Shown here: in pieces, positions 1 to 35,100 of the stretch | Numbering within the stretch: the stretch's first letter is position 1 | Layout: each line of letters begins with the position of its first letter | DNA from: Siphonodentalium dalli | Taxonomy: Eukaryota > Mollusca > Scaphopoda > Gadilida > Siphonodentaliidae | Assembly: GCA_032622095.1 (NCBI GenBank) | Contig: CP136066.1 | Coordinates: 92,525,319-92,589,318 of the forward strand | Reading direction: 5' to 3' | DNA: 64,000 nucleotides | Position numbers and translations under genes: made by a program | Notes under the pieces: generated by a model | The model's input: only the letters and a program-made list of their open reading frames with translations | What the model was told of the DNA's origin: nothing | Databases searched by the model: none

Positions 1-891
1 CCAAATTTCAAGTCGATAGCTCCACCCGTTTCCGAGATATGGTCTGCGCATGCGCGAAGCTGGCGTCGCACGGGCTCGGCGACTCGATAAAATTCGTATA
101 CGGGGCAAGATACATTCACATACCAAATTTCAAGTCGATAGCTCCACCCGTTTCCGAGATCTCGTCTGCGCATGCGCGAAGCGGGCGCCGCACGGGCTCG
201 CCAATACGACATCGTCGACCGCCTGGTCAAACTACACACACGTACCAAGTTTCGTCCCGATCGGTCGGGAATCGTAGATTTGTATAAATGATATACAGAC
301 AGACAGACAAACAGAGGTCTTCAAACTATATATGAGAAGACTAGCAGATGAGCCCGACGTTGTCCGGGCTATTCAAAAACCAAATTTCAAGTCGATAGCT
401 CCACCCGTTTCCGAGGTCTGGTCTGTGCATTGCGCGAAGTTGGCGTCGCACGGGCTCGGCGACCCGATAAAATTCGTATCCGGGGCAAGATACATTCACA
501 TACCAAATTTCAAGTCAAAATCCGTCGGGCAGTTTTCCCGGCCATAGCTAACACACACGCAGACAGACAGACAGACAGACACACAGAAATCCCAAAATAT
601 ATAGTAGACTAGCCGATGAGCCCGACGTTGTCCGGGCTATTCAAAAAACAAATTTCAAGTCGATAGCTCCACCCGTTTCCGAGATCTGGTCTGCGCATGC
701 GCGAAGCTGGAGTCGCACGGGCTCGGCGACCGATAAAATTCGTATACGGGGCAAGATACATTCACGTACCAAATTTCAATTCGATAGCTCCACCCGTTTC
801 CGAGATCTTGTCTGCGCATGCGCGAAGATGGAGTCGCACGGGCTCGGCGACCCGATAAAATTCGTATCCGGGGCAAGATACATTAACATAC

Positions 892-1013
892 CAAATTTCA
901 AGTCGATAGCTCCACCCGTTTCCGAGATATGATCTGCGCATGCGCGAAGCTGGCGTCGCACGGGCTCGGCGACCCGATAAGATTCGTATCCGGGGCAAGA
1001 TACATTCACATAG
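892..1013. repeat. Example 122-bp monomer of the array
   Basis: One complete monomer from caaattt to the next caaattt. The same 122-bp spacing is seen at 2 and 124. Because 122 is not a multiple of three, the reading frame rotates in each copy, which argues against a protein repeat. The monomer contains a self-complementary core, tgcgcatgcgc. Variants replace that core with a tgcgctgcacgggcg form. Confidence 0.85.
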
Positions 1014-1794
1014 CAAATTTCAAGTCGATAGCTCCACCCGTTTCCGAGATCTCGTCTGCGCATGCACTGCACGGGCGTCGCACGGGCTCGCCAATACGAC
1101 AAGGACGACTGCCTGGTCAAACTACAGACACATACCAAGTTTCGTCCCGATCGGTCTACCAGTTTTCGAGATCTGATCTGCGCATGCGCGAAGCTGGCGT
1201 CGCACGGGCTCGGAGACCCGATAAAATTCGTTTCCGGGGCAAGATACATTCACATACCAAATTTCAAGTCGATAGCTCCACCCGTTTCCGAGATCCGGCC
1301 TGCGCGTGCGCTGCACGGGCGCCGCACGGGCTCGCCAATACGACAACGTCCACCGCCTGGTCAAACTACACACACGTACCAAGTTTCGTCCCGATCGGTC
1401 GAGAATCGTAGATTTGTATAAATGACAAACATACAAACATACATACAAACAGAGGTCTTCAAAATATATATGAGACTAGCAGATGAGCTCGACGTTGTTC
1501 GGGCTATTCAAAAACCAAATTTCAAGTCGATAGCTCCACCAGTTTCCGAGATCTGGTCTGTGCATGCGCGAAGCTGGCGTCGCACGGTCTCGGCGACCCG
1601 ATAAAATTCGTATCCGGGGCAAGATACATTCACATAGCAAATTTCAAGTCGATAGCTCCACCCGTTTCCGAGATCTTGTCTGCGCATGCGCGAAGCGGGC
1701 GCCGCACGGGCTCGCCAATACGACAACGTCGACCGCCTGGTCAAACTACACCCACGTACCAAGTTTCGTCCCGATCGGTCAACCCGTTTTCGAC

Positions 1795-2205
1795 TGGCGT
1801 TGTTGGTCAGAAACCTTCCCTTCCTATGAACGATAGCACAACACGCATTTTTTGTTTTTCATGAATTAATTCATGGTACCCGTCCATCAAAGACTGACCC
1901 GATGAAAAATTCCCCTGTTCCTAGGACATATATGACACAAGAACCCATTCTGCCTTATTAATCGAGATAATTGCATTCCGCGTTTCGTTTTGCATCCGTA
2001 TTTTACGCATGGGTAGCCGTTTAACAGCTTCGATTGAAATAAAGAGCGTTAATCCTTAACACCTCCGAATATGGTCAATATAAAGATCGTTAATGCCTTA
2101 ACCCCCGAAGTGGCGTTTGCGGTGATTTTGATGATTGGGGGTGGAGAATCGGTGCTCAGAGCTTGTCCAAAATGCGACGTCGACGATCCCCGTGGTTTTT
2201 TACAC
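1795..2205. other. Non-repetitive spacer inside the array
   Basis: Array modules stop at about 1795 and resume near 2206 with a diverged copy of the gatcggtcaacccgttttcg segment. The spacer contains a local near-duplication around 2041-2105 (a gcgttaatccttaac-like phrase repeated). No coding region is recognised. Confidence 0.5.
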
Positions 2206-4540
2206 TTATATTCGAAATTTGGTCTCGATCGGTCAACCCGTTTTCGATTCTATAAAGGACATACAGACAGACAGAGGTCTTCAAAATATATATGAGACTA
2301 GCCGATGAGCCCGACGTTGTCCGGGCTATTCAAAAAACAAATTTCAAGTCGATAGCTCTACCCGTTTCCGAGATCTGGTCTGCGCATGCGCGAAGCTGGC
2401 GTCGCACGGGCTCGGCGACCCGATAAGATTCGTATCCGGGGCAAGATACATTCACATACCAAATTTCAAGTCAAAATCCGTCGGGCAGTTTTCCCGGCCA
2501 TAGCTAACACACACGCAGACAGACAGACAGACAGACACACAGAAGTCCCAAAATATATAGTAGACTAGCCGATGAGCCCGACGTTGTCCGGGCTATTCAA
2601 AAACCAAATTTCAAGTCGATAGCTCCACCCGTTTCCGAGATCTCGTCTGTGCATGCGCTGCACGGGCGTCGCACGGGCTCGCCAATACGACAACGACGAC
2701 CACCTGGTCAAACTACACACACGTACCAAGTTTCGTGCCGATCAAGGTCAAGGTCAGTTCGGGGTAACGATTTGACCCGTCCAAAAGACTCCCCGTCCAA
2801 AAGTACCTCTAGGTTTCAACAATGTTATTGAGTAAAAAATATGATAAAATGCATACGTGCCCAAGATACAAATATATGTAATTACGTCGACAGTATATAT
2901 AACGTATATATAATTTGTACCCGATTTGACCTTGAATTGACCTTTTTGAAGGTCAAGGTCAGGTCGGGGTCACGATTCGACCCGTCCAAAACCATCCCTG
3001 GAAAAAATTACCCCTAGGTATAAAATTCGTCAAAATCCGTCGGGCAGTTTTCCCGGCCATAGCTAACACACACACAGACAGACAGACAGACAGACACACA
3101 GAAGTCCCAAAATATATAGTAGACTAGCCGATGAGCCCGACGTTGTCCGGGCTATTCAAAAACCAAATTTCAAGTCGATAGCTCTACCCGTTTCCGAGAT
3201 CTGGTCTGCGCATGCGCGAAGATGGCGTCGCACGGGCTCGGCGACCCGATAAAATTCGTATCCGGGGCAAGATACATTCACATAGCAAATTTCAAGTCGA
3301 TAGCTCCACCCGTTCACGAGATCTCGTCTGCGCATGCGCGAAACGGGCGCCGCACGGGCTCGCCAATACGACAACGTCGACCGCCTGGTCAAACTACACA
3401 CACGTACCAAGTTTCGTCCCGATCGGTCGGGAATCGTAGATTTGTATAAATGATATACAGACAGACAGACAAACAGAGGTCTTCAAACTATATATGAGAA
3501 GACTAGCAGATGAGCCCGACGTTGTCCGGGCTATTCAAAAACCAAATTTCAAGTCGATATCTCCACCCGTTTCCGAGGTCTGGTCTGCGCATTGCGCGAA
3601 GTTGGCGTCGCACGGGCTCGGCGACCCGATAAAATTCGTATCCGGGGCAAGATACATTCACATACCAAATTTCAAGTCAAAATCCGTCGGGCAGTTTTCC
3701 CGGCCATAGCTAACACACACGCAGACAGACAGACAGACACACACACAGAAGTCCCAAAATATATAGTAGACTAGCCGATGAGCCCGACGTTGTCCGGGCT
3801 ATTCAAAAACCAAATTTCAAGTCGATAGCTCCACCCGTTTCCGAGATCTGGTCTGCGCATGCGCGAAGCTGGAGTCGCACGGGCTCGGCGACCGATAAAA
3901 TTCGTATACGGGGCAAGATACATTCACATACCAAATTTCAATTCGATAACTCTACCAGTTTCCGAGATCTGGTCTGCGCATGCGCGAAGATGGCGTCGCA
4001 CGGGCTCGGCGACCCGATAAAATTCGTATTTGGGGCAAGATACATTCACATAGCAAATTTCAAGTCGATAGCTCCACCCGTTTCCGAGGTCTGGTCTGCG
4101 CATTGCGCGAAGCTGGCGTCGCACGGGCTCGGCGACCCGATAAAATTCGTATCCGGGACAAGATACATTCACATACCAAATTTCAAGTCAAAATCCGTCG
4201 GGCAGTTTTCCCGGCCATAGCTAACACACACGCAGACAGACAGACAGACAGACACAGAAGTCCCAAAATATATAGTAGACTAGCCGATGAGCCCGACGTT
4301 GTCCGGGCTATTCACAAAACAAATTTCAAGTAAATAGCTCCACCCGTTTCCGAGAACTCGTCTGCGCATGCGCTGCACGGGCGTCGCACGGGCTCGCCAA
4401 TACGACAACGACGACCACCTGGTCAAACTACACACACGTACCAAGTTTCGTCCCGATCGGTCGAGAATCGTAGATTTGTATCAATGACATACAGACATAC
4501 ATACATACAGACAGAGGTCTTCAAAATATATATGAGACTA

Positions 4541-7476
4541 GATGGTGGACCCGACTTCGTCCGGGCTGTTTTCCCTCTGTTTTTCGGCGAATTGCGCGAT
4601 TTGACCTTGAATTGACCACTTTGCAGGTCAATGTCAGGTTTGGATCACGATTTGACGCGTCCAAAACATTCCTCAGATAAAAGTAACCCTAGGTATCAAA
4701 TTTTGTCAAAATCCCGTCAAAATTCGCGATTTGACCTTGAATTGACAATTTTGAAGGTCAAGGTCAGTTCGGGGTAACGATTTGACCCGTCCAAAAGACT
4801 CCCCGTCCAAAAGTACCTCTAGGTTTCAACAATGTTATTGAGTAAAAAATATGATAAAATGCATACGTGCCCAAGATACAAATATATGTAATTACGTCGA
4901 CAGTATATATAACGTATATATAATTTGTAACCGATTTGACCTTGAATTGACCTTTATGAAGGTCAAGGTCAGGTCTGGGTAACGATTGACCCGTCCAAAA
5001 GACTCACCGTCCAAAAGTAACTCTAGGTATAAAATTTCATCGAAATCCGTCCCGTTTTACCCGATTTGACCTTGAATTGACCTTTTTGAAGGTCAAGGTC
5101 AGGTCGGGGTCACGATTCGACCCGTCCAAAACCATCCCTGGAAAAAATTACCCCTAGGTATAAAATTCGTCAAAATCCGTCGGGCAGTTTTCCCGGCCAT
5201 AGCTAACACACACACAGAAAGACAGACAGACAGACACACAGAAGTCCCAAAATATTTAGTAGACTAGCCGATGAGCCCGACGTTGTCCGGGCTATTCAAA
5301 AACAAAATTTCAAGTCGATAGCTCTACCCGTTTCCGAGATCTGGTCTGCGCATGCGCGAAGATGGCGTCGCACGGGCTCGGCGACCCGATAAAATTCGTA
5401 ACCGGGGCAAGATACATTAACATATCAAATTTCAAGTCGATAGCTCCACCAGTTTCCGAGATCTGGTCTGCGCATGTGCGAAGCTGGCGTCGCACGGGCT
5501 CGGCGACCCGATAAAATTCGTATCCGGGGCAAGATACATTCACATAGCAAATTTCAAGTCGATAGCTCCACCCGTTTACGAGATCTCGTCTGCGCATGCG
5601 CGAAGCGGGCGCCGCACGGGCTCGCCAATACGACAATGTCGACCGCCTGGTCAAACTACACACACGTACCAAGTTTCGTCCCGATCGGTCGGGAATCGTA
5701 GATTTGTATAAATGATATACAGACAGACAGACAAACAGAGGTCTTCAAACTATATATGAGAAGACTAGCAGATGAGCCCGACGATAGCTCCACCCGTTTC
5801 CGAGGTCTGGTCTGCGCATTGCGCGAAGCTGGCGTCGCACGGGCTCGGCGACCCGATAAAATTCGTATCCGGGGCAAGATACATTCACATACCAAATTTC
5901 AAGTCAAAATCCGTCGGGCAGTTTTCCCGGCCATAGCTAACACACACGCAGACAGACAGACAGACAGACACAGAAGTCCTAAAATATATAGTAGACTAGC
6001 CGATGAGCCCGACGTTGTCCGGGCTATTCAAAAACCAAATTTCAAGTCGATAGCTCCACCCGTTTCCGAGATCTCATCTGTGCATGCGCTGCACGGGCGT
6101 CGCACGGGCTCGCCAATACGACAACGACGACCACCTGGTCAAACTACACACACGTACCAAGTTTCGTCCCGATCGGTCGAGACTTGTAGATTTGTATCAA
6201 TGACATACAGACATACATACATACAGACAGAGGTCTTCAAAATATATATGAGACTAGATGGTGGACCCGACTTCGTCCGGGCTGTTTTCCCTCTGTTTTT
6301 CGGCGAATTGCGCGATTTGACCTTGAATTGACCACTTTGAAGGTCAATGTCAGGTTTGGATCACGATTTGACGCGTCCAAAACATTCCTCAGATAAAAGT
6401 AACCCTAGGTATCAAATTTTGTCAAAATCCCGTCAAAATTCGCGATTTGACCTTGAATTGACAATTTTGAAGGTCAAGGTCAGTTCGGGGTAACGATTTG
6501 ACCCGTCCAAAAGACTCCCCGTCCAAAAGTACCTCTAGGTTTCAACAATGTTATTGAGTAAAAAATATGATAAAATGCATACGTGCCCAAGATACAAATA
6601 TATGTAATTACGTCGACAGTATATATAACGTATATATAATTTGTAACCGATTTGACCTTGAATTGACCTTTATGAAGGTCAAGGTCAGGTCTGGGTAACG
6701 ATTGACCCGTCCAAAAGACTCACCGTCCAAAAGTAACTCTAGGTATAAAATTTCATCGAAATCCGTCCCGTTTTACCCGATTTGACCTTGAATTGACCTT
6801 TTTGAAGGTCAAGGTCAGGTCGGGGTCACGATTCGACCCGTCCAAAACCATCCCTGGAAAAAATTACCCCTAGGTATAAAATTCGTCAAAATCCGTCGGG
6901 CAGTTTTCCCGGCCATAGCTAACACACACACAGACAGACAGACAGACACACAGAAGTCCCAAAATATTTAGTAGACTAGCCGATGAGCCCGACGTTGTCC
7001 GGGCTATTCAAAAACAAAATTTCAAGTCGATAGCTCTACCCGTTTCCGAGATCTGGTCTGCGCATGCGCGAAGATGGCGTCGCACGGGCTCGGCGACCCG
7101 ATAAAATTCGTAACCGGGGCAAGATACATTAACATATCAAATTTCAAGTCGATAGCTCCACCAGTTTCCGAGATCTGGTCTGCGCATGTGCGAAGCTGGC
7201 GTCGCACGGGCTCGGCGACCCGATAAAATTCGTATCCGGGGCAAGATACATTCACATAGCAAATTTCAAGTCGATAGCTCCACCTGTTTCCGAGATCTCG
7301 TCTGCGCATGCGAGAAGCGGGCGCCGCACGGGCTCCACAACACGACAACGTCCACCGCCTGGTCAAACTACACACACGCACCAAGTTTCGTCCCGATCGG
7401 TCGAGAATCGTAGATTTGTATTAATGACAAACATACAGACAAACATACATACAGACAGACAGACAGAGGTCTTCAA
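4541..7476. repeat. 1,716-bp higher-order tandem duplication
   Basis: The segment beginning gatggtggacccgacttcgt at 4541 recurs at 6257, a shift of 1,716 bp, and the two stay closely matched for more than 1.1 kb. Each unit holds a block of short GACCTTGAATTGACC / AAGGTCAAGGTCAG inverted pairs, an A+T-rich bridge, and then GACA and 122-bp modules. A partial earlier relative begins near 2744. This points to recent unequal exchange or replication slippage. Copy collapse or expansion in assemblies is likely here. Confidence 0.85.
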
Positions 7477-7563: not shown

Positions 7564-8016
7564 TCAATGCGTGCGTGAACTTTTAACAGAATACATACCC
7601 GTATCATTTACTTCTGGCGATTGTCTGGTCTCACTGTCGATCCCATTAGGAATGCCATTTATCCTAGTGGGCCCAAGCACGTCAGAAATTCGACCCTCAC
7701 TGTCAGTTGTGTCGTTTGAATTCGGTGCGCCACCGCCAGTTGTGCCAATATCGTTATTAGAGTGTACAATTTTCCTCTTCGTTTCGCGGGCCAAATTGGT
7801 CCATTTCTTTCTTATATCGGTGACTGTCCACTGAACAGAGCAAGTGTTAACAGAATTAACCCTCCGACAAATGTCCGCCCATAGTTTGTCCTTCCTTGCA
7901 TTAGTAACTGTGCTTTTGAATTTACTTAACAAAACATCCTTATTTGCATGGACAGCCTCTGTTAGTGCCTCCAGTTCGTGATTGGAAAAAATTGGATTTC
8001 TTTTCGTTGTTGACAT
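7564..8016 (-). CDS. Myb/SANT-like DNA-binding protein (Harbinger-associated type)
   Basis: An intact 150-residue ORF from ATG at 8016. Residues about 5-85 read as a tri-helical Myb/SANT-like domain. It begins NPIFSNHELEALTEAV, has the hallmark KLWADICRRVN turn, and closes with DIRKKWTNLARETKRKI. This is the pattern of the Myb_DNA-bind_5 / NAIF1-MSANTD family, which includes the DNA-binding partner proteins of PIF/Harbinger transposons and domesticated host relatives. The remaining ~65 residues are Ser/Asn/Thr-rich and look disordered. A host factor or transposon protein of this kind would bind DNA in the nucleus. No matching Harbinger nuclease is seen nearby. The stop lies about 75 bp from the edge of the tandem array. 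It has no introns and no in-frame stop, so it may be recent or under constraint. Function is inferred from the domain only. Confidence 0.7.
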   Translation of the reverse strand: MSTTKRNPIFSNHELEALTEAVHANKDVLLSKFKSTVTNARKDKLWADICRRVNSVNTCSVQWTVTDIRKKWTNLARETKRKIVHSNNDIGTTGGGAPNSNDTTDSEGRISDVLGPTRINGIPNGIDSETRQSPEVNDTGMYSVKSSRTH

Positions 8017-9194
8017 TTCGGAAGCAATGCGTCTAGTGACAATATTATCCTATTCGAAATGGCTGGAACATTATCACGTGGTGCTTTTTGGACATTAAAT
8101 GTCCACGCCCATGTCGCGATTTTCAAGACTGTCCAAATTTTTGTCATGTTTTATTTTTTTGCAGGGGTGGGATGACCATTGTACAGCATACAGCATATAT
8201 GATATACACACCCGTAACGATGACACCCCTTAATGCGAGTGTGCTAATAAAAACGTAGTTATATAGATATGCATGGTATGGCAACCGATAGATATACATC
8301 TGCATAAAAATAATAAAAAGTTACTCTAACAAATATTTGTCATTTCCCTTTGAATCGAAAAATGACCTGTGTGTCCCGATGACATCGCCGATTTATTTTG
8401 ACTATTGCTACACGTAGAGAGCGGTAGTCGATAATACACGAGTTATGTCGGCTCACACACAAAAAAACTCGCCGTCTGATCATTGCTCTCAGTGGATTAA
8501 CTCGGCGTGAATGCATGGTCGCAGTACTGCCATGCATCGATCCATATAATTATATTGTCTTATTTATGACACCGCCACTCGTCAGTAAACACAAAGCTCG
8601 TCATTTTAAGAGCCTGCGATGTACTCATGTTCGAATTCACATCGTGGAACTCATACAAGTCTCAGATCCATATGCGAATATAAGGCCACTGACTATAGAC
8701 ACTAAGATACATGCGCTGATTCGCCCACCCCCACCCCTGCCGCTATCCAGCATCCCTGTTACACAATAATGTCAACTCTGACTCGGCACTTTCTCGATAA
8801 CCTCTCAATGCCGTACATAAAGATTGTACAAGCCCACATGTTTTGTTCCGGACTGTAGAAAGTTGTCGATAACCAGTCTAAACTTACTACTTAAGTGGGA
8901 CTTAATCTTGTTTTGTGAAACGCGTTCTTGAAACGGAAAAGTTACATCATAAGATCCACCTTAGATCTTAGATTAAGTCCATCTTAAGATAATCTTATGA
9001 CCTTGCTTCATGAAACAGGCCTCAGGTGTCCAGCATATGCGGACGGGTTGATTTTATGATTTTTGGTATGTCGACTCTTGTCCTTTCCTATTCAATATTG
9101 GTTTTCATTTAATCATTCTAATTACCACATGAATATATCCTCGGAAATATAACGGGGACTTAAATTTTGCAGGTGTTTATAATGCTGTAAATAC
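8017..9194. other. Non-coding stretch; receptor M4 exon not found
   Basis: On receptor phasing, the next exon after the S2 exon (M4 and the cytoplasmic tail) should lie below 9195 on the minus strand. I could not find an M4-like hydrophobic exon here. A decayed repeat at about 8890-9020 is rich in cttaag and atcttaag steps and ends ttcatgaaacaggcc, a phrase typical of degraded marine-invertebrate repeats. Nothing else is recognised. Confidence 0.4.
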
Positions 9195-9448
9195 CTGTGA
9201 TCGAAAGCTTGCTTATATGGCGCTTTCTTTGGAACAACGAAGGCTAAAGTAGCGGAATTGAACGTCTCTTCAGCTACAACAAGGCGGCCACATTCGATTA
9301 TAGTGTAATAGTCGAGTTCCGATCTGTCAGTCATAAAGGCATACTCTCCAGTTTTAGCAAGCCGAATGCCGTCAGATGTGTTATCGGCAAATACGTCATT
9401 CTCCCCGATTTTACTCCAGATCTTGCTGTAGAGATCGCCACTCGATTT
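9195..9448 (-). CDS. iGluR exon: main part of S2
   Basis: 254 bp, acceptor tgtcatatctcag and donor GTATTT, starts phase 0 and ends with two bases of a codon. It encodes [18 protein letters not shown], then a stretch with [19 protein letters not shown] and [12 protein letters not shown]. The Asp of MTDRS aligns with the acidic residue that contacts the ligand amino group. The cysteine in ECGRL is where family members have a conserved S2 disulfide cysteine. It ends near PYKQAFDH, just before the final S2 helix and M4, whose exon was not found. Confidence 0.92.
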
Positions 9449-12400: not shown

Positions 12401-15400
12401 CCGTAATTCAGTACGGTCTTGATCAGAAGCTGCTGACGGCAATTTTTATTCGATAAAATACAGAAGGGAAATTGAAATAAAATTATATTTTGTTAAGGAT
12501 ACAAGAGAGATTACTTACGAAAAGTCCGTAATTTCATTGCATTTCCCATGTCATATAATTAATTTTAATGGGTGATTTAGATGCTTTTAAAGCGTCGTCT
12601 GCATTTGCAATTCTGCAGAGTTCACAACGTAAATCGATCGATTCTTGCGATTGTACATGTACGTAAATTTAAAACAATATGGAATTTAACGAGGTATCAT
12701 ACGATGATCTAATGCAGCTATTTCGAGAAGATGACGATTTGCATGATGTTGTGAGCAGAATCGACAAAGAAAACAGTTCTAAAACTAGTGAAAGAAATGT
12801 TTTAGTTGACAGTCAGTGTACTAATTCTCAAATGTTGCATGCAGATGCCACTATCTCAGCCAGTGTTTCTGATTATGGGTCCTCAGTTCCATTATTCGTA
12901 TGAGCCAAATGTTTGGAACTCACTGAGACACGACACAAGATTTACAAACTCTCTGACCGATTTCAAAACTTTGTTAAAGAGTGAATTATTCTGTGCTCAC
13001 TATGGGGAAGTTACCTCAGATGTTGTTTAATTATTTTGATGTATGTGTATATCTATGTGGTGTGTATAGATGTATGTATATCACGTGTGATAGAGGGCAG
13101 GGTACTAGTAGGAATGTAAGCGCTCTGGGCCATATGGGATAAAGCGCTATATAAAAACTAGTTATTATTATTATTATGGGGATGGAGAAGGAAGAACAGC
13201 GAAAATAACAACATTAACAATACAACTGCAAGTACTTCAACTGCTAATACTACTGTTGTTACATCACCACTGACAGAAGTAAGTGCTCAGCAGATACCAA
13301 CAATGGCAACATCCAAAGCACCAACATTTGTTAATGTTCAGGACTCTGACAAAGATGACTTTGTATCTAGTATGCATAGTGAAGAAAACCCAAGTTGTAA
13401 TAAGAGCATTTACAAAATTTATGTCCCAGAGGAATGAATCGAATTTCGGGCTATTGAGACGATTGATCCAATTCACATGGACAATTATATAGGGTCCTTC
13501 ATACTGTATGTCAGGAAAGCAGATGGATCTGATTATGAGCCGGACTCATTGACATCCTACCACCGCGGTATCGATAGATATTTGAGGGAGAAGAAGTATC
13601 CATATCTAATATGCATGGACCGAGAATTCGAAAGTTCTAGGACAGTATTGGCAAGTAAGAGGAAGTAGTTAAAAGAAGCTGGAAAAGGTAATCGGCCAAA
13701 TGCAGCTGAACCAATAACAGAAAGTGAGGAATTTCTACTTAGGGAAAGAGGTGTGCTAAGCGTTGACTGCCCATATGGATTGCTGAATATAATGTGGTAT
13801 AACAATCTGAAATTGTTCGGCATGCACACTGGATGGAATGGAATTGTGCTTGAAAAGGACGCAAATGGAATTGAATATTTAAAACATAATGAAAGTTCGA
13901 CAAAAACCCGAAAAGGAGAAAGTTCCAATACTCACCACCGAGCATTCATTCCGAAAGCATTTGCAAACCCTGGAGTTCCAGCTACAGAATGTCCAGTTGC
14001 AGCCTACAATGTTTTTGCATCAAAGCATCCATTGAACACTTTGCAGCATGATTCACCATTCTACATTCAAGTGAATCATAATCGGAAACCAGATTCACCT
14101 ATCTGGTATAAGGCTCAGCCTATGCGTGAACACGCCTTAGCCAAAATCATGAAGAACATGGCAGAGAAAGGTGAGCTTCCTGGTATAAAGACCATACACA
14201 GCATGTGTGTAATTGTCTACTCGCATCCAAAACGATCTACAGGATTAATCAGCCATTCGCGTCGTTACCATGACCTTTCGCAATGTTCTTCCCCTTAACA
14301 CCACTGTATGGTAGTTCAATTTGGCTTGCATATTATCACATTATTCATTTGGAGGGATGTTCAGGAAAACTAAGCAGACGACAGATATAGGAACACGAAA
14401 ATAGAAGTTCAGAAGGATTCATATCCATTTAAGGAAATGTTTAGATAATAAGTTTAAAAAACGACTTGTGGTCGTTTTGACGAACTTAGTATCTGAACTT
14501 TAATACTAAGGGATCGATGAGTATTTAGTAAAGAGAGGATTAAGTTGGGAATGATGTATAGACATGTGACCTAAAACGCATCTCATACGAGCTCATGGGT
14601 CGAATTTAGTAATTATATGGTACAGAAACGTACCAACATCAAATCGGATGTGACATATTTAAGGATTTCATGCCATAAACGTGTAAAATTGATTACCCAC
14701 TCAAGCCTTGAAATAGTGTCTGTCATTTGCAGAATGAGGTCCCCAGAGGGAGAGTTTAGTGACTCTATCCCCCAATGCGGGCTAGCTTCACCAAATTTAC
14801 CCTCTGGGAACATCATTGAATATTTGTATTCCATCTATTCTATTTGTATTCCATTCTCGACCTACACCCATACAACGAGCTGTAAACTGGACCCCAATTT
14901 ACAGCTTGGAGCTGTATAAAAGCATGTGTTAGCACAAAGATTCCATTCATTACCAATTGACAGCTCCGAGCACTGTTTTCACGGACAAAGCTATATAGCT
15001 GTCACTACTCATCAACACAGATTGCGACTATCTGTACATGAATGCCGAAGTCGGGATTGCATGGCATATCCTGTTTACGGTATCAATTACATACCGGTAT
15101 AGACTATTATACAGGCACGCTGTTAGATTTAAATTCCATCACATCGTTAATAATTCAGATATAGTTTTAAACAGCCTGTTGATACGGTACCAGTTTCTCA
15201 TTTTCGCGCTTCGATCTTCCATAAAGTTGCTTTGTTTTGTTCTCGAACATATTTGATCAGCACTTCTCATGTGTGTTGTATGGCGATCCATAGGTAAGTA
15301 CGCTATATTGTTCCATTCCCGGTAGGATTTAATTTTTGATTGGCAATAATGTCTAACCCTACCCAACATTTGGTAAAAGTTTCCAACGGTGTAAATTTGG

Positions 15401-18400: not shown

Positions 18401-21400
18401 TCATCAGGCCTATATTAATGACCACAAAAGTCAATACATGAACAGACTAATACTAAGAATGTGGCTGTAACTGATAAATGGGCAGACCGTGAAAATTCAC
18501 TGTTTTGCTGTAAATTTTTTAACGGCATAACCGTTTAATTCTACGGTTCAATTGTAAAGTCAAGAACGGACAGACCGTGAAAAATTCACGGATTGTCTGT
18601 AAAATTTTTAATGGACAGACTGTGAAAAATTCACGGATTGGCTGTAAATTTGTTAACGGCAAGACCCTGAACAATTCACGGTCCAACCGGCGAAAAATCA
18701 CGGTTCTGTTTTAAACAGTGTATGTTTATCCCCATAAGGTGGCGAAAGTGAACCGTTATAACATGAGCGGTATTGTCAGTCATGAACTGCATAAACGGTT
18801 TGCATCCATTTTTTTCATAAATTGTGGTACTCTGGGAAAAAACATTTCGTAGCAAAATCGTTGGATGACTGAAGGAATGTTCTATAACATTTCCTCAGCA
18901 GTGTCTATGGTATGCCCTTATTATGTGCTGTGTTATAGCGACGTGCATAATCCAGGTACCAATATTACTGTAATATAAATATAATATAACTTATATTAAC
19001 ATCAAAACTATTTTCACTGGACGTATTGGTTTTAAAACGATGACTTACCGAGAACAAATCTTGCATGTTGGTCCCTTTTACAATAAGTGGTTTTATCTTG
19101 TCCTGATCAGCCAGGTCTCTGAGACTGTTGATAGGGTTTTGTGGAGCGGGCGCAGTTAGAAAAGCTGCAAGATTAGCTGTGTACGTTGACGCCATTACGA
19201 CTGTGAACAACCACCAGACTCCGATGATTATTCTGCTGGATACAGCCTGTGGCTTCGGGTCAGTGCCTGCATAATTAGAACCAGAAAATTGTCACAATTG
19301 TGACGTCCTAGACACACGTAAAAAAAACAGGGCATTTTCAATAAAGAATATCTTCGCATCTATACAACAACTCTTTAATTTCACACACCTTCACCAGTCT
19401 GTAACAGAGCTCACCAGTCTTACTCCCTTTCTTACTAAGTCACCGACTGGGTACTAGTCTGTTGTTTCCTGTATTTAGCGCGGGGTTTTCCAGGACAAAT
19501 GGCGAAACCGATCGCCCCAATTGTTTTATGTGCTTTGAGAACAATTCTCGCACTAATAACTTAATGACAACATGGACAATTAGTTACTCGTCAAAATTGC
19601 AGCAGTTAGTACCCTTGTACCATGTGTGTTGTGACAATGTCGTCCATGTGCGCTTAGACATTTGGTTTGATAAAATAATCGGAGAACCAAATCACACCGT
19701 TTCGCAATATAGTTCTTTGGTTCTAGTGAGACTTTCAAAACTTAAGGTACAAAATTACACACACAATCGATATTTAATGTGCTTCATAAGGGCAAACTGT
19801 TGCTCTGCTCGCTTAGTATATATCTTAATATCGCGAAAGTCCAGCAAGAACAAATAATGTGGGTAAAATGTCGCCGGTTTCCGAGTCATCAATGGCCCAT
19901 GAATGGAGTTTGCACCATCACATCATTTTCACTGCCTCATGTAATATTAATAGCTATTATGAGCAGATCGCATATTTCGATACATTCAATATATTGATAT
20001 TAATTTAGTTTTTGTTTCTTTAGGTACCAAGAACTGAACAGACCTGGGAATTCTCAAACATGAAGATTGTTTATTGGCGATTGAATCTAGACATTAAATT
20101 CCCTTTCACGATCTTCAGATTTGATATCATGAGCGTATATAAACTCCCCAGTGAAATCGGTATATGTCGCAGAAGTTATTGGTACCTGCAGTAATTAATT
20201 TTGAAGATTTTATCATGTCATGATTGAAGGTTATTAAGTATTGTGTTATTTACATCAATCAGATGTGCCCAATTTTTAAAGGAAATTCCATTTTGAAAAA
20301 ATCCATTATGAATCATCAATAATGTCAGGCAAACCTGTATCTTGACCATAATATACACGTACCTTGTTCCATGAAGCAAGAAAACGCCAGCCACACATGA
20401 TCGAGAAAACCATGGTCAAGATACTCGTCGCTTCTTGTTCGCCACCGGATATGTGCAACAACAGTTAGTGTTAAACCAACCACAACAACAGATAAACCGA
20501 TAAGACACCACACTGACCAGGTAAAGGGTTCGAATGGCTTGAACATCGTATCTGATGCATTACTATCCTCGCTGGTAATTATGCCAACTCCGTCATCAGC
20601 GAATGGCTTGACAAAGTCTATAATAGTCCCTCGGATTTCAGTCACAGTGAATGGTCCGACGGCCAAGTCAGCTTCCTTTGAACAAGATAAGACACGAGGA
20701 TGGGTTATACTCACGAAAAATGTTCCAGTCTCATCATATATAATTAGCCCACATTCTTGTGAAATCAGCACTGACGTGAATGTTTGATACATGTTTTAGA
20801 TAGTTTGGATGTGATTAGACTTCGACATACCTATGTTTGGAAACCGCCCTGTGACAATATGTTGGCATATAATATAACGTGTAGTACTGAAAGGTACACA
20901 TCTCGTCAACTAAGCCGATAATAAAACATGTCACATTCATACCTTAGTTCTGCCTTAGTGACAACCTCTGGTCGTTTCAACAAAGTAATAAATGGCGAGT
21001 CCATAGCTTACAATTTTATCCCGTAAATAAGCTCATATAAAACTTATTTAAAAACACAAATGAGCCCATATAAGGATTATTTGAATCTCAATTAAGCTCT
21101 ATATGAACCTAAGTGGGATACCATAAAACAGTCGTATATGAGCTTATTTAAATTTGAAATAAGCTCATATGGGCACTAATTAATCTACTTTTTCACCGAC
21201 ACGACGTGCCATATGAACGTGTCTTAACCGCGCCATACAAGGCAATAGCCGGTTTTAGTCCTTATGGGCTTATTGCAGAATCAAATAAATTCCCTATGAA
21301 CCTACGTGAATATTTAGGGCCTATTTCAACCTCTTTGCATTAGGATATGTTGCATAGCCATATTCATACCCAAAGCCACACATAACATGTCCTTTATAAG

Positions 21401-24400: not shown

Positions 24401-26107
24401 ATTGAGACATTTCCTCCGAAACAATCTTGGTTCTGCTGTTCCAAAAGAAAAATCGCCTGTTGCTTCAAAACAGAGATATACAAAGTCATTTAAACGTTGG
24501 GTGAATGATTACATTCTGTCTCGCCCACCGAATCATCAGCTTGACGCATACCTTATCGCTGAAATATGTTATTTTAAAAGCTACTTTACATATTTCGATG
24601 TGGATCCTTGGTAATTTCGTGTTCTTTATTTGCTATTTATTCAGGGGGGGGGGGGTCGGAAAAAATTTTCAGGCACGTATGGCATTTTTTCCCTTTCGAT
24701 CATATTTTGTACCCACCCACCCCCACCGCCAAATTTTTTTCCGTTTACGACTGTTTTTTCCGACCATTTTTTTACACCCCCCCCCCCTTTTAACACTAAA
24801 ACAGATTTGCGGGGGGAAATTTACTGTAAACAGCTGTATATGGATTTCTGTGCATACTATTTATCATGGATGTTAACATGGACATGTAAATAGGAATGAG
24901 TCATTTTGAGGTCATTCGGCCAAAAAAACATGGCTGCCAGCGGCCATCTTGGATTTCAAAATTTGCAACAAAATACAACACGATAACTGCCTGCAGTCAG
25001 TTTACCAGTTAGAATTACATTATTTCTCTCATTCAAAGTGGTTTTGAAGCCCAACTCATTGCCAAAACACTGAAAAAACAAGTAGAATTTTTTTTTTTAG
25101 TTGCGGAAAAAATTGCTTGTTGGTGGCTTTGACCACCCACCCACCCCGGCATATGTGCCTGAAAAATGTTTTTCACCCCCCCCCCTGATTTATTATCTAT
25201 TTTTGTAAAGCTTTTATACGTTTTCCAGTATGGTTGCAAGCTAGTCAGTTCTTGAATTTATATTCCTGACTCCAAGTGGAAAAACTCCTCTCTGGTGCTT
25301 TTATTTGTACATAGCTCATCATTGCATCGTTTTAATCTAATCCACTGGCTGATATTTCTACACAGTTGCTTCGCTACGAACTTGTTATACCCGATTCTGT
25401 TCTATGCTAAAACGACGTTAAACTCTCAATCAATCAATCAGTCAATCAAATAATGCAGAACAAAATATGAGCAATATAGTTTATGTTCTTATTATAATAG
25501 TGCTTACCCCTCTCGATACCATACCGACCATCCCTGTCCATGTCCCATCCGGTTTCTTTGCACCAAACTCACTATCCTCTGGCTCGATTATATCGTATCT
25601 ATAAATATTCTCTTCAGTTGAACCATTTACAGTGAGGAAAAAACATGTTATGAACGCAACATAGACTTTGGCTATTACCAGTTTATTCATAATATGTGTC
25701 CCTAATATGATACACGAACAGAATGGTATGGGAAGGTGTGACGGGGAAAACAATATATTGGGTCCAATATCCGATTCGACGATACGAGAACACGGCTCAT
25801 TTCAAGAATTCGGAACATGTCCACCAATGGAGATATAGAGGGAACAGAAAATAAATTTTTTCGCGGTTGAGTCACTGTCTGGTTTCGGCAAGCGCTATCG
25901 TTAGGAAACTTCAGAAATCCAGCAGAACAGAGGACCGAATGGGAATTGGAGTATAAATCAATCGCTGAAGTAAACCCTATTGCCGGGTGACTCTAAAGCC
26001 AAGATATTCTTGTATATGTTGTAAGATAATAGGACGACGTCTCATATAAAGTAATTATCTGCCTTCCAGAGAATACTCAATGCAGTGAACTGATGGGTCG
26101 ACAGGCG

Positions 26108-26174
<67 letters not shown>

Positions 26175-29100
26175 CCCGTCGTGTGTGTGAGAGGGAGGGT
26201 GTGTCTGAGTGTGTATAACTCGGTCACGCTTTTGGCGCGATTATAACTTTTCAACCATGCGTGCAATGTGGCCCAAATATGTACCACGGCCTATACTGTG
26301 TCGTAAAAGATGACCCACTAAATTTCAAGTCGATTGGTCAAAGCAAACCTGAGATCTAACATGATCCAGAAATGCAGTATATACACTCAAGTATAGACAC
26401 TATTTCTTATGACCTTTGTCGAAATGACGTCATGTACGCAAACCCACATTAGCTTTCTATTGTCGACGAAACTTCCATGCGCGCTAACAGCGTTGTTGGA
26501 AATAGGCGCTAAATTAATTTGTCAGTTCATGTTGAGTGTGAATATAAGTCAAGAATGTTGATTGTGTCGCGGAAGTGCATGTACATATATAGTGGGGGTG
26601 TGGAGTCAAGACTCGAACGATCTAACGTCGTTGGGAATGGGTGCTAATATGGTATTTTAATTTGCCAGTTCGGTGTGAACATAAGTAATGGATGCTGTTT
26701 TTGATGAAAGTTGTGCATTGAGTGTTGAATCGAAGGAGTACCAGTATACCCGGAAGATGGCGAATGGACACAGTCTGATCTCCCACCAGTGGGTACCGGT
26801 ACCGTTTAGTAGATTCGCCGGAACTCAGTTAGAGAAACCATATTTCCGGGCCGGGACTAATAATACAGTGGAAGCAATACTGCCGACGCTAATTAATGCT
26901 CTTTTCATATTTCAGTTGAATGCAAATCTGATAAAAGAATGTTTAAAAAATCAAAAAGTGCGCGAAGCGCACGCTGTTTATAAGATAATATAATGTGCGC
27001 GAAGCGCACAAAGATGCCACAACTAAATAAAGGCCCCCGAATGGAGTCTGTTTCAGTTAGTATATAATAAAGTAAAATATCTTGATTGTAGCGTTCCATA
27101 TGTGCATGCATATATGTGGGTTGGGGTAATGGGGGGGGGGGGGTAGAAATACAGTTTTAGTGAAATGAAGTGTTCCCACAAATGGGCCGCGCAGTGCAGG
27201 GCGTGTGATCCTTAGGCTGCATGCTGAATACAGATTACAAAGGCGGTCCGTTCAAAATGAGCCGCAAACTCCCTTCGTCGTTGAATAAAGGCTCCTAAAT
27301 TGAGTATGTTTCAGTTGGTGTATAGTATTGTTTAAAGTAATATGGTGATTTTGTTTCGTTCAATATGTGCATACGCATATGTGTGCTGGGTGTGTATAGA
27401 ATTACGGTTTTTAGTGAAATAAAGTGTTCCAACGCGCATCCAAAAAAGAGAAGCATGACCATTCATGACCGCGAACACTAGAAAACAACAAAGAACATTT
27501 ATATACCCGTCATTTTGTGACGGGCAACCCCCTAGTATCTAAATAATTTTCCATTCCAGACGAGGTTAACTTCGGTGCATTGGGAGGCCAAATAAGATAT
27601 GTTTTTGCCCGAATTGCGGGTCAATATACTCCGATTGGAATACCAGGGTTTCAACATATCCTTGCCCAAATACGCATATAATCGACTTTAATGTGAGATA
27701 TGTAAAAGTGTGATTATTTGATTATGAAATAAGCCGATAATGGACTCATATCCGTTATTTCGCCTAGGGCTCAAGCCACAGTGAAAACATATGTTAAAAC
27801 GTGTATACCTTAAATTCTAATTATGCCTAGAATCGCCATATTATGAGTCGATAATGTGACTAACATGCTCTCTTTTTCATCACATTATCGACTCAAAATG
27901 AGGCGATCCTAAGCACATTGAAACAAACGATTATAGAAAGGGTTAAAGTTATCAGGAACACCTGGGTGTCAAAACGGAGTAGCAAATGTTTGCTATAAAC
28001 GGTGAAGATACTGTGAATATTGTTAGTGGAATCATTGCCTTATGTTTACAATCCAATAATTGGTCAAGAAAAAAATATTAACTATATACATGTGTGCGTT
28101 GTTCAAACGTTGTTTTCTCACAGGAAATGAGATTGGAATGTTCGACAACCCCAGTTGATTGTTATATTCTGCCAATAGAGATAGTATTTGAGTAACAACT
28201 TGTCAGTTTTATTCACTGGAACATATTGTAACAGTGAGGATATACTTAAAATTGCAACAACCCCACACGCTCGGTGTATTATGTTTTTGATGTTGGAGTG
28301 TGTGACACATAAATACGTACTTAAATTTGAGATTTGACGCCATCATTCGTAGTATATCCATTAACATCCCAGTATATGACGTTATGTTGGTTTTACGTTT
28401 GACAATAAATGGGTGGAGCTGCAAGTAAACGGAATATAACGTTGATTCATGCGACACTGCTCGCACCGCCCCGATATCAAGACAAGAACCAGGTTTATAG
28501 CCACATATATGAGTAACTTGTAACGTGTGTTACCTTTACTAACGGAAAATCACCTGATCCACGCAACTATTCCGCCTACATGCACTTACATGGTTAAGAA
28601 AGCGTCTCATTCGTGAATTTTCAAAAAGGTCAATTTCGAACTATCAATTTGAAGGAAAAAATAATTACCCCCTATAACAGCCGTATGCTATAGTAATATA
28701 ATAACAACCATTTACCATCACCATATGAGAGATATTTTCCATCTATGTAAAAAAGTGGTTTAAAAAACCCCCAGATTTGTTTTAGGTAGATCGATAGCGA
28801 ATTTGACAGGAATTATTTGCAAAAACCACCTTCAATTATCTGGACTATCAACGAACTAGGGTTTGCGTCCCGTCTACCATCATGACTGTATGTGTGAAAA
28901 TGAATCAAACAATTTTCATTGAATTATTCTGATTTTTTTGGCAGCCATTTGCATAACCTTTTTTTTAAAAGAAAAATCATCATAAAACTTCATAATATCT
29001 GAATAAATGAATCAGTATTGAGTGCTTATATCTGCCAGATCATTGAAAACGTTGTTGAATAGTACTTGATGTTGTTTTATGTTGTTTTGTTCCTTCAGCC

Positions 29101-32100
29101 AATAAAAACAATGTTCTAAAAATGACTGCCAAAAAATGTCAACATCTCGAAAACAGTCGATTCCGTGCATTTCCGGATAAATTCATACCAGAGCTCGTCG
29201 AATATTTTCTAGGCTGACACAAATGCGAGGTTGTGAAAATAATAATTTCAAAAATCTAAATCTGATAACTCTGAACTTTAAGGGATGGGTTCCTCGACTC
29301 AAATCAACTAAATTTTATTTTACCCCCTGAAGCCGAAGAGATCGTAATTTAGGGGCGTAAATCTCGTTGTGTATCTTTAATGTATCACAAATTACGGCTA
29401 CATGATCTCACCTCCACAGTGACAACCCTGATTGTAGACCAATTGAAGTGCTTGAATGTGTGGTCAAACAAATCATCATTAATCACTACGAGTCCTCTCT
29501 CTGAACTCCACTCGCCAACCTTAGACAGACTGCCGTCACCCTGGGTACTTGTAGAACATATCTGGAATATCTGGTCCAGCCGGTAATTATCTGTACCAAA
29601 TTGTATTATGCCTGACTCGCCTTCGAACGATATCTGCAATAATTATACGTCAATTGCTAGAAATAGAAACGTTTCGCATACGAATAGGGCTTTCCGTCAG
29701 TTGTCGTTTTTGCCATATATGTAGTTACGATTACAGTTTCGGGTTTGCAACAGATTTCACAAATACATCAGATAGTAATAATATCCTAATTGTTTCTTTG
29801 GTCCTCAATGTGGGAGTTTACAATGAGATTGTTGTCCTTACGTTGTAATTGTCATGTGATCTTCTCTCTTAGCGGCAATGGAATGAGTCATATGTACATA
29901 ATTCAAAATTAAAGACATATTATGTATTATGTACTTGTCCGGGAGCGTGACACTGATAAGTTAATAGTCGGGCGCTATTTCAACTGGGTGAATGTAACAT
30001 TACTAAAATCGCCGAAACTTTGAAGCAAATCGATCGTACCACTCCATAGAAAACATCGTTTCAACAACGCTCAATTGTAAATATTTACTACTCGATGCGG
30101 GACGCAAATATTGGCGATAAACTAACGAAACCGATTTCGCCATCGACAGTCGCTGTATTTAATAAATATATAAGAATGATGTGGGACTGTGTGTGTTGTT
30201 TATTTGGATAATATATATTTTAAAAATTACTACTTTGAGCATGAGTATTGTCAATTTATATTTGGTCACCCTATCGGTGTGTTTCACATCACATTGAGTA
30301 CATACTAATTCTGGCAGACAGTACTATATAACCTTACAGCTAGTGGTGAGAAGTTTGAAGAACACCATTTTCTCAAAGTTGTCAATTATGCGAAAAGTGT
30401 TTTGGAGGGTCCGAAAACTGTGCAATGGACGTAACCATTATCAGAAAAGTCTTCTACAGTAATGCCCTAAGTAATCGACTCCTTGACCTCATCAGAATTA
30501 TGGGTAACTTTTCAGGATTTAGTCGGAAATACGGCTTGTCGCCATTTGTAGGAAAGCTCTCAAACTTCATTTGAGAAATTTGCGACTCTGGCATAATGTG
30601 GTGAGAAGGGAACCAGCTATGAAGAACCAATCGAATCAAGTAAAGTAAATTCCTTCCTGGCCAAATGTAGCTCCACTGACGGACAATATTACCAATTTGT
30701 TAATAAAAATAATAAAAGCACTTCTTGGACGATTATCTCATGATGATATTTATTATATCGCATTCGTAAAGCTACATTTCTCCCCAGGCTCCATCGCCTC
30801 TTGCGAATTCTTAAAGACACACAGTTGATGCGGAAAAGCTTTTGGTGAGTCCTAAATCCGTCAATTCGCCACTTAAAAAATTGGTTACTGACATTCCGTA
30901 TTTTATCTAAAATGTGTAAAAGAAAATGTAAGGATATACCGTATGTGTATAACAAATGTGATGGCAGCAAAATTTCCAGCACATTGTGACGTAAAGTTAC
31001 GGATATTTTTCTCAGTTTATTTCGCTGACTAACTTCGCACGCTTCTGTAACTGTTTTCTTAATTCGCAATGGCTTACACTAGTTAGTGTATAACAGTATT
31101 TGTGAACACATTATTGGGGAAACAATACAAACATGATATTTTAGGTTTGACAAAGCTTTTTATTGTTTAATAAGAGCAGGTGTTCATGAAATTAATTGTA
31201 CCCTGCAACTCTTTGGTTATCCGATGTCTGATATCTCTGAAGTTTTAGTATGGATCGAATAAGCTCGTAATTAAAAATACCACTTGACCATGTTTGTTTA
31301 GTTGATTGTAATTTACGATATGGAATACTTCTTGCATTTTACACTTGATCATTCGCGGTTATCTCTTATCGATATTGCCGCTTTCTGTTTTGTAATCTGT
31401 TCTCCAATTAGGGAAAATAGTTGGCTCTCAAAATGTTAGAGCCCACTAGCATGTGACTCAGCAGAATTGCTCGTTCAATATAGTCAGATAAAGATGTCTA
31501 GTTGCCGAATGTCCATACATGCATGCAGATATATACGAAAATATTATATGCTATTCTCACAGGACGCAAGTTGTTGTATGCGGATTTAGATACTAAGATG
31601 CAAATGCTATAACATTTTCTCTCACATATACCGTCATTCCTTAACCGATCCCATGGAATTGATACTGATATAAATGGAATTCAACTAGTGTATTTATAAA
31701 CATGTGCACAAGTGCACTTGCACACATGTCATTAAGTGAGGCAATACACATCTCTGGAATTTCAAAGTTATAGTATGGTTCGAAATAACTCGTAATTAAA
31801 CATGCAACTTTAAATAACCATCTGCATTTAGTTGAATAACATTAATTTTATTGAATACTCCTTTTATTTTACACTTGATCATTCCCGGTTTCTCACCGCA
31901 TTTTGCAGTGTGCTCTAATTTGACCACTCGCGAAACCAAGTAAGGCTTAAAGGATCAAACGCGCGTTATTCCAAGACATTTTCAACCGACTAATTCCTTG
32001 GATCTGTCCAGCGACAAATCTTGAATTTCACATATGCTTAGCTTCATTGTATATAGAATATGGAAAGCCATTAAGAGATGACAAAACAATGTATATTAAA

Positions 32101-35100
32101 TGAAAATATAATTTTCTTATTTGTCCCTTTAGGTACCAAGGACTGCTAGAATAACTAATAATTTCGCACACCAATCCAATCACTAAATAGCTTATTGGCT
32201 TTGATCTATGAGAGGAAGCTTCATTTGTGTAATAATTGGTATTTACTCACCGTTTTAAGATTTTCGACTATGGGATCGTTGATGACCGAGAGCAGCCCAC
32301 CAGACACATGCGAACATAGTGTTACATCGGTGTTTCCTGACGCCGTTGTGGTGTTGATGGCGGCAATAGTTAAAGCTTGCACTGCGTCCCTCAGCGTTGT
32401 TGCAAACTTGTATCAAGAATATGAAGAAAACCATAGTCGGAAATGGTATATAACGCCCTCAAGATCATATTATTAGGCATATATAAAATACATTAGAGCT
32501 TGGGCCTTCACCTGTAGTGAAATATATTATTAAGGAACAGATAAACTACGAAATATATTACCTGCACTGTTTTTGCAATGTAGTAAACTTATAGAATTCC
32601 ATGTCAAAACAGCAACAATTTCCCAGGTTTTGAACTAGTGGAGCATCATCTGTACGGGTGTAGCTGGACTAACGATCCGTGGCATGATATAGAGGAGACC
32701 ACAATTCCTCGCTATGTGCAGTTATCAAAAGGAAGGGCAATGATGCTTTCTACCTGGCAGAACGAGGCAAGGTATACTACCGGAGAATTAGTATGCATGT
32801 GCAATTCTACTAGTGTAATTTTACCAGAGTAATTCTACCAGGGTGATTTATTAGGGTAAAGTTATTATGGTAGTACCGAGGTGCACTTTCAGAACCTTTA
32901 ACATTTACGATAATAGATTTGAAGCCATATGAATCACACATGTGATCACCTAAGGTGTTAAACACTGGATTTAGCCTACTTATTTATTAGAATAGTCTTG
33001 TACCATGCTGTTAACTTTTGAGTATGATACCGAGTTTGTTTTCCACTGATTAACGAACAGAATATGATTTTATTGTGACAAAAGAGACAGAAAATACCTC
33101 AGCCGAAAGATGTCCTATTATGAAATATATTGATCGCTCATAATTACTATAGTAACACAAAATAAACCATGGTTTACATTCCTCTACTCTGGTAAAATAT
33201 GGTATAGTCAGATATACAATGATATACTCTGATAAAAGCCATGTAAAGTTTATGTAAAATGACATATCCTTATAAATTCCAAGTAAAGGCATGATATAGC
33301 CCACGTACATTATGCTATTGTAAATCCTGATGTATTACCATTACACACAACACATTAACCAACATGGGAGCCTATGTACCAGCCAGTTTGAGATTGGTTG
33401 GACTCCATCTTGTAGTGTTGTTTCCGTTTTTGACCTTAACAAACCCACCCAAATTCTTGTTCCTGGTTGAAATACAGTTTGTAAGATCAGTAGCTTGAAG
33501 TCTGAACTGCTACAGTGACAACATACCAGACTTTAGTCTAGAAATAGGACTAAGATTCATAATATCATTCCCGTCGTATCACTTGTATATTATTGTACAG
33601 TCACTTTCCCAGTTCGGGATAACTGATCGCATTCTCTCTGCACAAACTTTCTCGGTTGATTTGCATGGTCATACATTGTTCCAAGACATAAGAAAACATA
33701 TTCTCTACACTATTTATAATGGTTTTTAGGTCGAGCTTCAACGAAAAAAAAGTATTTGGTTCTGAAATTACCCTGCTCATTTTTCCCAGTTCGGGATTTT
33801 TTTTGCCGGTTCGGGATAACTTAATGTTTGACATTGCTGTTAACTTATCTGTCATTTTATGTGTATTAATATTTTATTTTATGTGATTTTATGCTAATTT
33901 CTTTCAAAAGAATGCATATTTGAGCTAATAAAATTGCTTTATGAGTGCGTGATTGGCTTTTGAAAATGACTGTTGAACTGTTGATATCATGTTTTATTCA
34001 GTTTAGGAATCTTTTTATTTTTTGTTGAAACCTGCAGTGTTTGCTTGATTCCAATGGTCATCTCATGTTTCTTGATGTGATTCTAAAACATTTACTCTCC
34101 ATTATTAAAAAAAATTGTCTTCCTAATGAATAATTTGTTCAAAGAAGAGAAAACAATACTACTAAAGGAATATGTTTGGCCAGTGTAAAAAATATGCATG
34201 CAATGGTCTACAAATAGAACGTTTAATGCAGCAACACTATCTTTGCATTGCTATGTGGTGTTACCCTTGGTGGGGTTTCTTTTGGCATGAGAGATTTCAT
34301 CTCTATATGTCAAGGTCATACACAAAGGTCAAGGTCATTCACCAAATTATTGGCTTTTTTCATATCGGGTCATACATTTTCTACTCACTGATTTTACATA
34401 TCTGTTTTGAAGACGTTATCTTTGCTCCGAAATAATCTGTAGCGTATGTGCTACATGGAGAACTGCATTATTGTTGAAACCGACATGTCAGTCATGATAT
34501 ATAGGCCTTTAAACTTGGTGACCATTTTCAAAAATGGGTCAAAATCAGTTATTTCCCGAATAGTAGAGGCAAGAGCCTCTACTATTCGGGAAATAACTGA
34601 GCTTTGTGTATGACCTTGACATATAGAGATGAAATCTCTCATGTCCAATTTTTGGCTCCCGTGTGCATTTTGTGAAGAAATATAGCCACTATGCTCATGA
34701 TGTTGCTTGATATCTGGGGCACCAGTAAACAAATGTTAGACACCTGTGGGTTGCGACTGGGTGGATTTATGACGTCATCAAGATGGCCGCCATCCAAAAT
34801 TTCAGAGTATGCACTGAATCAGTTTAATTAATAGCTAGTAGTGAATGTATGATAGGAAATATAATATTTCTCTACTGTTGTGATACTATGATAACAGACT
34901 TTAACAGAAAAATTTATCACATTTAACCAAGATGGCCGCCAAAATGGCGACCGAAGTTCGGGAAAATGATGAATTTTCACACATGTCTCTTAAAACATTC
35001 ACGGTTGTTTGAAATTGGTGGCTAATAGCAACTTAATTTTAAATACATTTGAATACCTAACCATTTGAACATGATAATATGTCATAATTTAGGTCTTATT

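Follow-up and report, generated by a model that had tools for sequence, protein, structure and literature searches.

A glutamate at the Q/R/N pore site in an expanded clade of ionotropic glutamate receptor genes of Siphonodentalium dalli

In ionotropic glutamate receptors (iGluRs), the principal switch known for calcium permeability and for polyamine block is the Q/R/N site of the pore loop. In a 64,000-nucleotide stretch of the Siphonodentalium dalli genome (here, the window; C6:92525319-92589318 of 2.23 Gb in 9 contigs), an initial annotation had read glutamate at this site of a receptor gene. We asked whether the acidic residue is correctly placed, whether it belongs to one gene or to many, and what kind of channel it would make.

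The receptor gene of the window and its pore

The residue lies at the end of a minus-strand exon (20363-20675) that, by sequence reading and alignment, encodes the end of S1, with the ligand arginine in TEIR, then M1 and the pore loop, and closes with SCFMEQ/G. The GAA codon at the Q/R/N site occupies 20367-20369 (minus strand). A GT splice donor follows the exon directly, at 20362-20361 of the same strand, and the next exon (19266-19049, minus strand) opens GC ACT GAC CCG, which supplies bases 2 and 3 of the glycine codon. Across this junction, FMEQGTDPKP aligns to FMQQGCDISP of GluA2 without a gap (HMMER); the pore is also gapless against the FVQQGGE stretch of GluD1, and the Glu falls on the same position. 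With both alignments free of gaps, the Gln of the EQG string is ruled out as the Q/R residue, and the original placement of Glu in SCFMEQG, followed by TDPKP, is correct, coordinates included. The gene therefore has Glu in place of the Gln or edited Arg typical of AMPA and kainate receptors and in place of the Gln of GluD1 and GluD2. The exon at 19049-19266 encodes an acid four positions past the Q/R/N site (+4; the Asp of TDPKP), M3, and the gate, YTANLAAF. Gate and ligand arginine had both been described as intact, and both are; the view that the gene looks functional in its pore part is borne out.

The remaining exons are spread widely on the minus strand. The S2 exon (9195-9448), ∼10 kb from the M3 exon, reads YAFMTD, in which the Asp aligns with Glu705 of GluA2. 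One S1 exon lies at 25508-25612 (start approximate); another (28317-28415, ends approximate) is conserved in a tandem paralog and falls in the Lig_chan-Glu_bd match of the joined protein. Pfam Lig_chan matches M1, the pore loop, and M3 at 106.7 bits (cut-off, 30.8), and Lig_chan-Glu_bd matches the split S1/S2 region of the joined protein at 74 bits. A region read by eye as a probable amino-terminal-domain exon (29385-29642) lies inside a block conserved in the paralog and had no Pfam match. In a Pfam search for the amino-terminal domain, none of three open reading frame (ORF) peptides contained a receptor domain, and two of them matched unrelated families below threshold. The ORF at 34451-34735 was dropped as a receptor part because it lies outside the blocks conserved in the paralog.

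A matching M4 exon at C6:92512861-92512962, 12.4 kb to the left of the window and 97% identical to the M4 stretch of the paralog, is a candidate for the last part of the gene. Given this exon and the S2 exon, a truncated gene is unlikely. The tandem neighbor, whose exons run from C6:92622365 upward, shares conserved blocks over parts of window 9 to 57 kb. Over 261 codons, the two genes differ by 20 synonymous and 34 amino-acid changes, with no stop and a dN/dS of 0.48.

The pore residue across an expanded clade

A Pfam Lig_chan search of the genome gave at least 124 matches, and the M1-pore exon of the window gene, used as a query, gave 82. Fifty-two of the latter are M1-pore exons of the same type (loci L009 to L060), which we treat as one clade; they cluster on C3 (71.8-79.4 Mb), C5 (32.6 Mb and 188.7-189.5 Mb), C6 (88-95.7 Mb and 138.8-139.0 Mb), and C7 (49.5 Mb). 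Two with broken frames, L044 (C5:189325279-189326091) and L054 (C6:138951734-138952564), are likely decaying copies and were set aside; EQG can still be read in another frame of L044. Among the 50 in-frame exons, 49 have Glu at the Q/R/N site, encoded by GAA in 37 and by GAG in 12, and the sole exception, L035, has Gly (GGA). Collapsing at 95% identity leaves 42 exons, 41 of them with Glu (32 GAA, 9 GAG, 1 GGA). The Gln and Gly next to the pore Glu are invariant in the clade. Elsewhere these exons have diverged considerably, with pairwise identity at a median of 40% and a minimum of 25%.

Outside the clade, none of the 27 tabulated exons has Glu at the site. A script read Gln in 7, Leu in 2, Ser in 9, Ala in 4, and Thr in 1; the four in which it found no motif (L002, L003, L004, and L006) have Gln, Arg, Gln, and Leu, respectively, in a gapless hand reading against GluA2. 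This tabulation leaves out L069 and also L073, L086, L091, L092, and L093, in which no Glu was seen by eye. Some of these loci are unusual in their own right. In L003 (C5:84149020-84149331), a hand alignment (GTLLRGSLIS) places a genomic Arg at the Q/R site, and the +4 acid is lacking. At or close to the Q/R/N site, L092 (C2:161643356-161644162) reads SLTPQG, with Pro, and L093 (C4:122964908-122965708) reads TLLWQG, with Trp, both by eye.

These counts rule out a single-gene oddity and confirm that the acidic residue in the window gene is real and not a chance reading, common as it is to nearly all in-frame clade exons and written with both Glu codons. At one gene per in-frame M1-pore exon, the clade would hold about 50 genes, and, judging from their sequences, members of this large, provisionally delta-affiliated group normally carry an acid at the Q/R/N site. 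Since the Glu is kept while the exons diverge to a quarter identity, it is probably held by selection.

Neutral drift, or decay of the genes that carry it, would be a different account of the residue. It could draw on the broken frames in 2 of the 52 exons and on L035, whose S2 exon (L136, assigned by position) also lacks the ligand acid, but it does not sit well with Glu in 49 of 50 exons, synonymous GAA/GAG variation, and the depth of divergence, nor with the dN/dS of 0.48 and the uninterrupted 261 codons shared with the tandem paralog. We consider it extremely improbable.

L035 and L136 (C3:72.97 Mb) mark the only in-frame member of the clade with a Gly pore; the gate reads STHTANLAAL, and the acidic ligand anchor in L136 is gone. 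In two other members, L019 and L017, the beginning of the M1 exon is partially matched a second time, ∼240 bases before the exon itself (C5:189196494-189196649 and C5:189029631-189029783, respectively); each of these extra matches is a decayed or alternative exon copy.

The genomic residue might also differ from the translated one if the Glu codon were recoded to Gly by A-to-I editing through an exon-intron hairpin, as at the Q/R site of GluA2. Folding does place a 16-bp exon-intron stem around the codon (arms 20424-20409 and 20352-20337, minus strand); only 5 of 2,000 shuffles gave a stem as long (6 of 2,000 with ends off by one base), and the GGA of L035, which is genomic there, is the codon that such editing would yield. 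The stem region, however, was picked after the fold had been seen, and the whole fold is ordinary, with 11 of 100 shuffles as good. In the 86%-identical paralog, the stem is not part of the best fold. In a duplex test, the window gene was equaled by 6 of 100 shuffles; among 51 genes, only 4 were equaled by no more than 5 of 100. The Glu codon itself sits between the stem arms. According to the text of PMC6626132, a 5′ G disfavors editing, and a GAG codon at the Q/R site is predicted to be ∼90% less edited than CAG. Editing of the window codon is unlikely because GAA shares this 5′ G; the stem is probably not functional, and hairpin-directed recoding to Gly seems to us very improbable.

Kinship and the ligand site

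Kinship was examined with three trees. The first, of 81 M1-pore rows and 112 columns with the Glu column included, resolved the clade as one branch (100/97) adjoining GluD1 and GluD2 (94/92), and the Gln-type genes of the same genome fell near GluA2 and GluK2. The second comprised 42 rows (34 clade genes) in which M1, M3, and S2 exons were matched up by location and joined without the pore triplet; the clade was again recovered (100/100), and its placement is not resolvable there since this tree has no outgroup. The third took in 15 of those 34 clade genes, with two NMDA-type genes from the S. dalli genome as outgroup; the clade (100/100) joined GluD1/GluD2 (98/94), and forcing delta with AMPA/kainate was disfavored (p-AU, 0.037). 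Pairwise scores against PDB chains were nearly equal (GluD1, 165 bits; GluK5, 164 bits; GluA2, 163 bits). We provisionally regard the clade as delta-affiliated, on trees with few columns in which Phi, group II, and the protostome deltas are not represented. As to the phylum, mollusc haemocyanin and annelid linker families had no match in this genome, but they were equally blank in all 14 control genomes, and the result carries no weight.

Those classes bear on an alternative, that the clade belongs to Phi or to the uncharacterized AKDF group II, in which Glu at position 586 would be ordinary and already visible in published figures. As described in PMC6307864, no Phi subunit has Q586, and amphioxus Phi proteins often have altered ligand residues; PMC12226733 reports Phi receptors from lophotrochozoans and group II receptors from molluscs, annelids, and others. 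The clade is like Phi in lacking the Gln at 586 and in its often changed ligand residues, a likeness to Phi as it is described in PMC6307864. Against this stands the set of residues named at the site for epsilon receptors, namely, Ser, Ala, Leu, Gly, and Phe, with Glu not among them in the text of the sources consulted (PMC12226733 among them). Natural Glu at the Q/R/N site was likewise not found in the literature text surveyed, as distinct from figures and supplements; the survey included PMC10642201, PMC5225553, and PMC12837371. We make no claim to a first report, as Glu may appear in published figures of Phi or group II receptors; membership of the clade in one of these classes appears rather unlikely.

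The ligand site is consistent with the delta affiliation. The ligand arginine of S1 is present in all 50 in-frame clade exons. For the lower lobe, 40 of the 58 other matches to the S2 exon were compared with that of the window. At the Glu705 position, the window gene has Asp, as does GluD1, and lacks the Glu characteristic of AMPA and kainate receptors; over the 41 exons, the residue is Asp in 25 (the window gene and 24 of the 40 paralogous exons), Glu in 3, and another residue in 13. C3, C7, and two C6 locations account for the 13 exons without an acidic anchor. Glutamate is probably not the likeliest agonist of the window gene, because Asp rather than Glu stands at this position and because the trees place the gene with delta receptors. 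On this point the initial annotation is to be amended: the receptor is probably not gated by glutamate. Because Arg and Asp serve as the ligand anchors, we infer that the gene product binds a small amino acid, for which glycine, D-serine, and GABA have precedents. Several invertebrate delta receptors are GABA gated, and an oyster delta receptor that was tried gave no current, as the text of PMC10861852 has it.

The acidic anchor is gone from 13 of 41 S2 exons, yet 49 of 50 M1 exons keep the pore Glu. This also fits a chemosensory clade in the manner of the ionotropic receptors (IRs), in which a Glu filter would be kept for calcium entry into sensory cells and ligand sites would diverge freely; the large tandem expansion points the same way. 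IRs are marked by loss of the amino-terminal domain and of the glutamate-binding residues. The window gene keeps both Arg and Asp, its probable amino-terminal exons were read by eye, and the S1 Arg is present in all 50 in-frame clade exons. Moreover, a separate clade in this genome looks more IR-like. It comprises 14 exons on C5, C6, C8, and C9 (L070, L072, L074, L076 to L078, L080 to L085, L087, and L088), with Ser in 9, Ala in 4, and Thr in 1 at the Q/R/N site, and by its resemblance (EKYNPYYARNN) we take it to be IR25-like. A chemosensory role is conceivable, and we hold it with some doubt.

For a delta-affiliated clade, the likeness to GluD1 and GluD2 extends to the S1 Arg, the Asp as lower-lobe ligand anchor, the gate, the acid at +4, and the grouping in the trees. 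It ends at the Q/R/N site, where GluD1 and GluD2 have Gln and these genes have Glu, and in the number of genes, ∼50 in tandem.

A predicted double acidic ring

The Glu is not the only acid in the filter. Among 41 M3 exons (40 fetched and that of the window), 37 have an acid at +4 (27 Glu, 10 Asp); the others have Gly (2), Gln (1), or Asn (1). The text of PMC12226733 describes this acid as critical for polyamine regulation in GluA2 and in a placozoan receptor. From these residues, the filter of the clade is predicted to hold two acidic rings, the Q/R/N Glu and the acid at +4.

The nearest functional precedent is human GluA2 Q607E, found de novo in a patient (PMC6626132), which has Glu at the equal pore position, followed by QG, as in the clade. 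In HEK cells its kainate currents exceeded those of the wild-type control, which carries the edited Arg, and the authors credited the loss of that arginine (PMC6626132). Homomers were strongly inward rectifying, a sign that block of the polyamine type persists; surface protein was reduced, and fewer cells survived (PMC6626132). Since Q607E cuts surface expression and cell survival, a natural Glu filter must be tolerated in some other way. Simulated Q586E conducted 92 pS with a fully charged ring and ∼20 pS when partly protonated, against ∼10 pS for the wild type (PMC12854771). Judged from Q607E and the simulation, a 4-fold carboxylate ring conducts and rectifies inwardly. Raised calcium permeability of the clade channels is likely by analogy, from electrostatics and the acidic filters of other channels, and polyamine block would be altered by the Glu filter.

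Q607E is a pathogenic de novo change in an AMPA subunit, whereas in the clade Glu is usual and is written with both codons. A closer parallel for a natural, noncanonical Q/R/N residue common to a subfamily is placozoan GluE1 epsilon; there, however, the residues are neutral (Ser, Ala, or Leu), with Ser lowering calcium permeation and polyamine regulation, while here the residue is acidic and the clade is of AKDF type (PMC12226733).

Taken together, the window appears to carry most of a full-type iGluR gene from a tandemly expanded, delta-affiliated clade in which selection would keep the pore Glu. Four subunits would then form a carboxylate ring at the narrowest point, with a second acidic ring below it, and this double ring would make for a cation channel that conducts strongly, rectifies inwardly, and is more permeable to calcium. 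The window gene would be gated by glycine, D-serine, or GABA and not by glutamate; its sister genes without the acidic anchor may take other ligands or encode silent subunits. As a likely role, the expanded set would serve calcium entry in sensory cells or at synapses. We favor this reading as a whole, with its selected Glu filter, calcium-permeable rectifying channel, and nonglutamate ligand, and consider it somewhat probable. More speculatively, and with less confidence than doubt, the ∼50 genes might form a delta-related family of channels whose double acidic ring makes calcium dominate and which open to GABA, glycine, D-serine, or ligands from the environment; such a filter would match, by convergence, the glutamate ring found in voltage-gated calcium channels.

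Naturally set at a residue that is pathogenic in human GluA2, the clade offers test material for a 4-fold carboxylate ring and may show how animals tolerate a Glu filter. A natural mutant series is available in the Gly variant and in sister genes that have or lack the ligand anchor.

The window also contains repeats and probable mobile elements. Positions 1-7465, between the receptor S2 and M4 exons, are a GC-richer satellite of 122/268-bp tandem units. An ORF at 7564-8049 (minus strand) encodes a Myb/SANT-like DNA-binding domain (PF13873), presumably of the kind that accompanies Harbinger-type transposons. At 13438-14298 (plus strand), ORFs match DUF3504 at 69 bits, with a further sub-threshold match to QRICH1; they probably belong to a Crypton-type mobile element.
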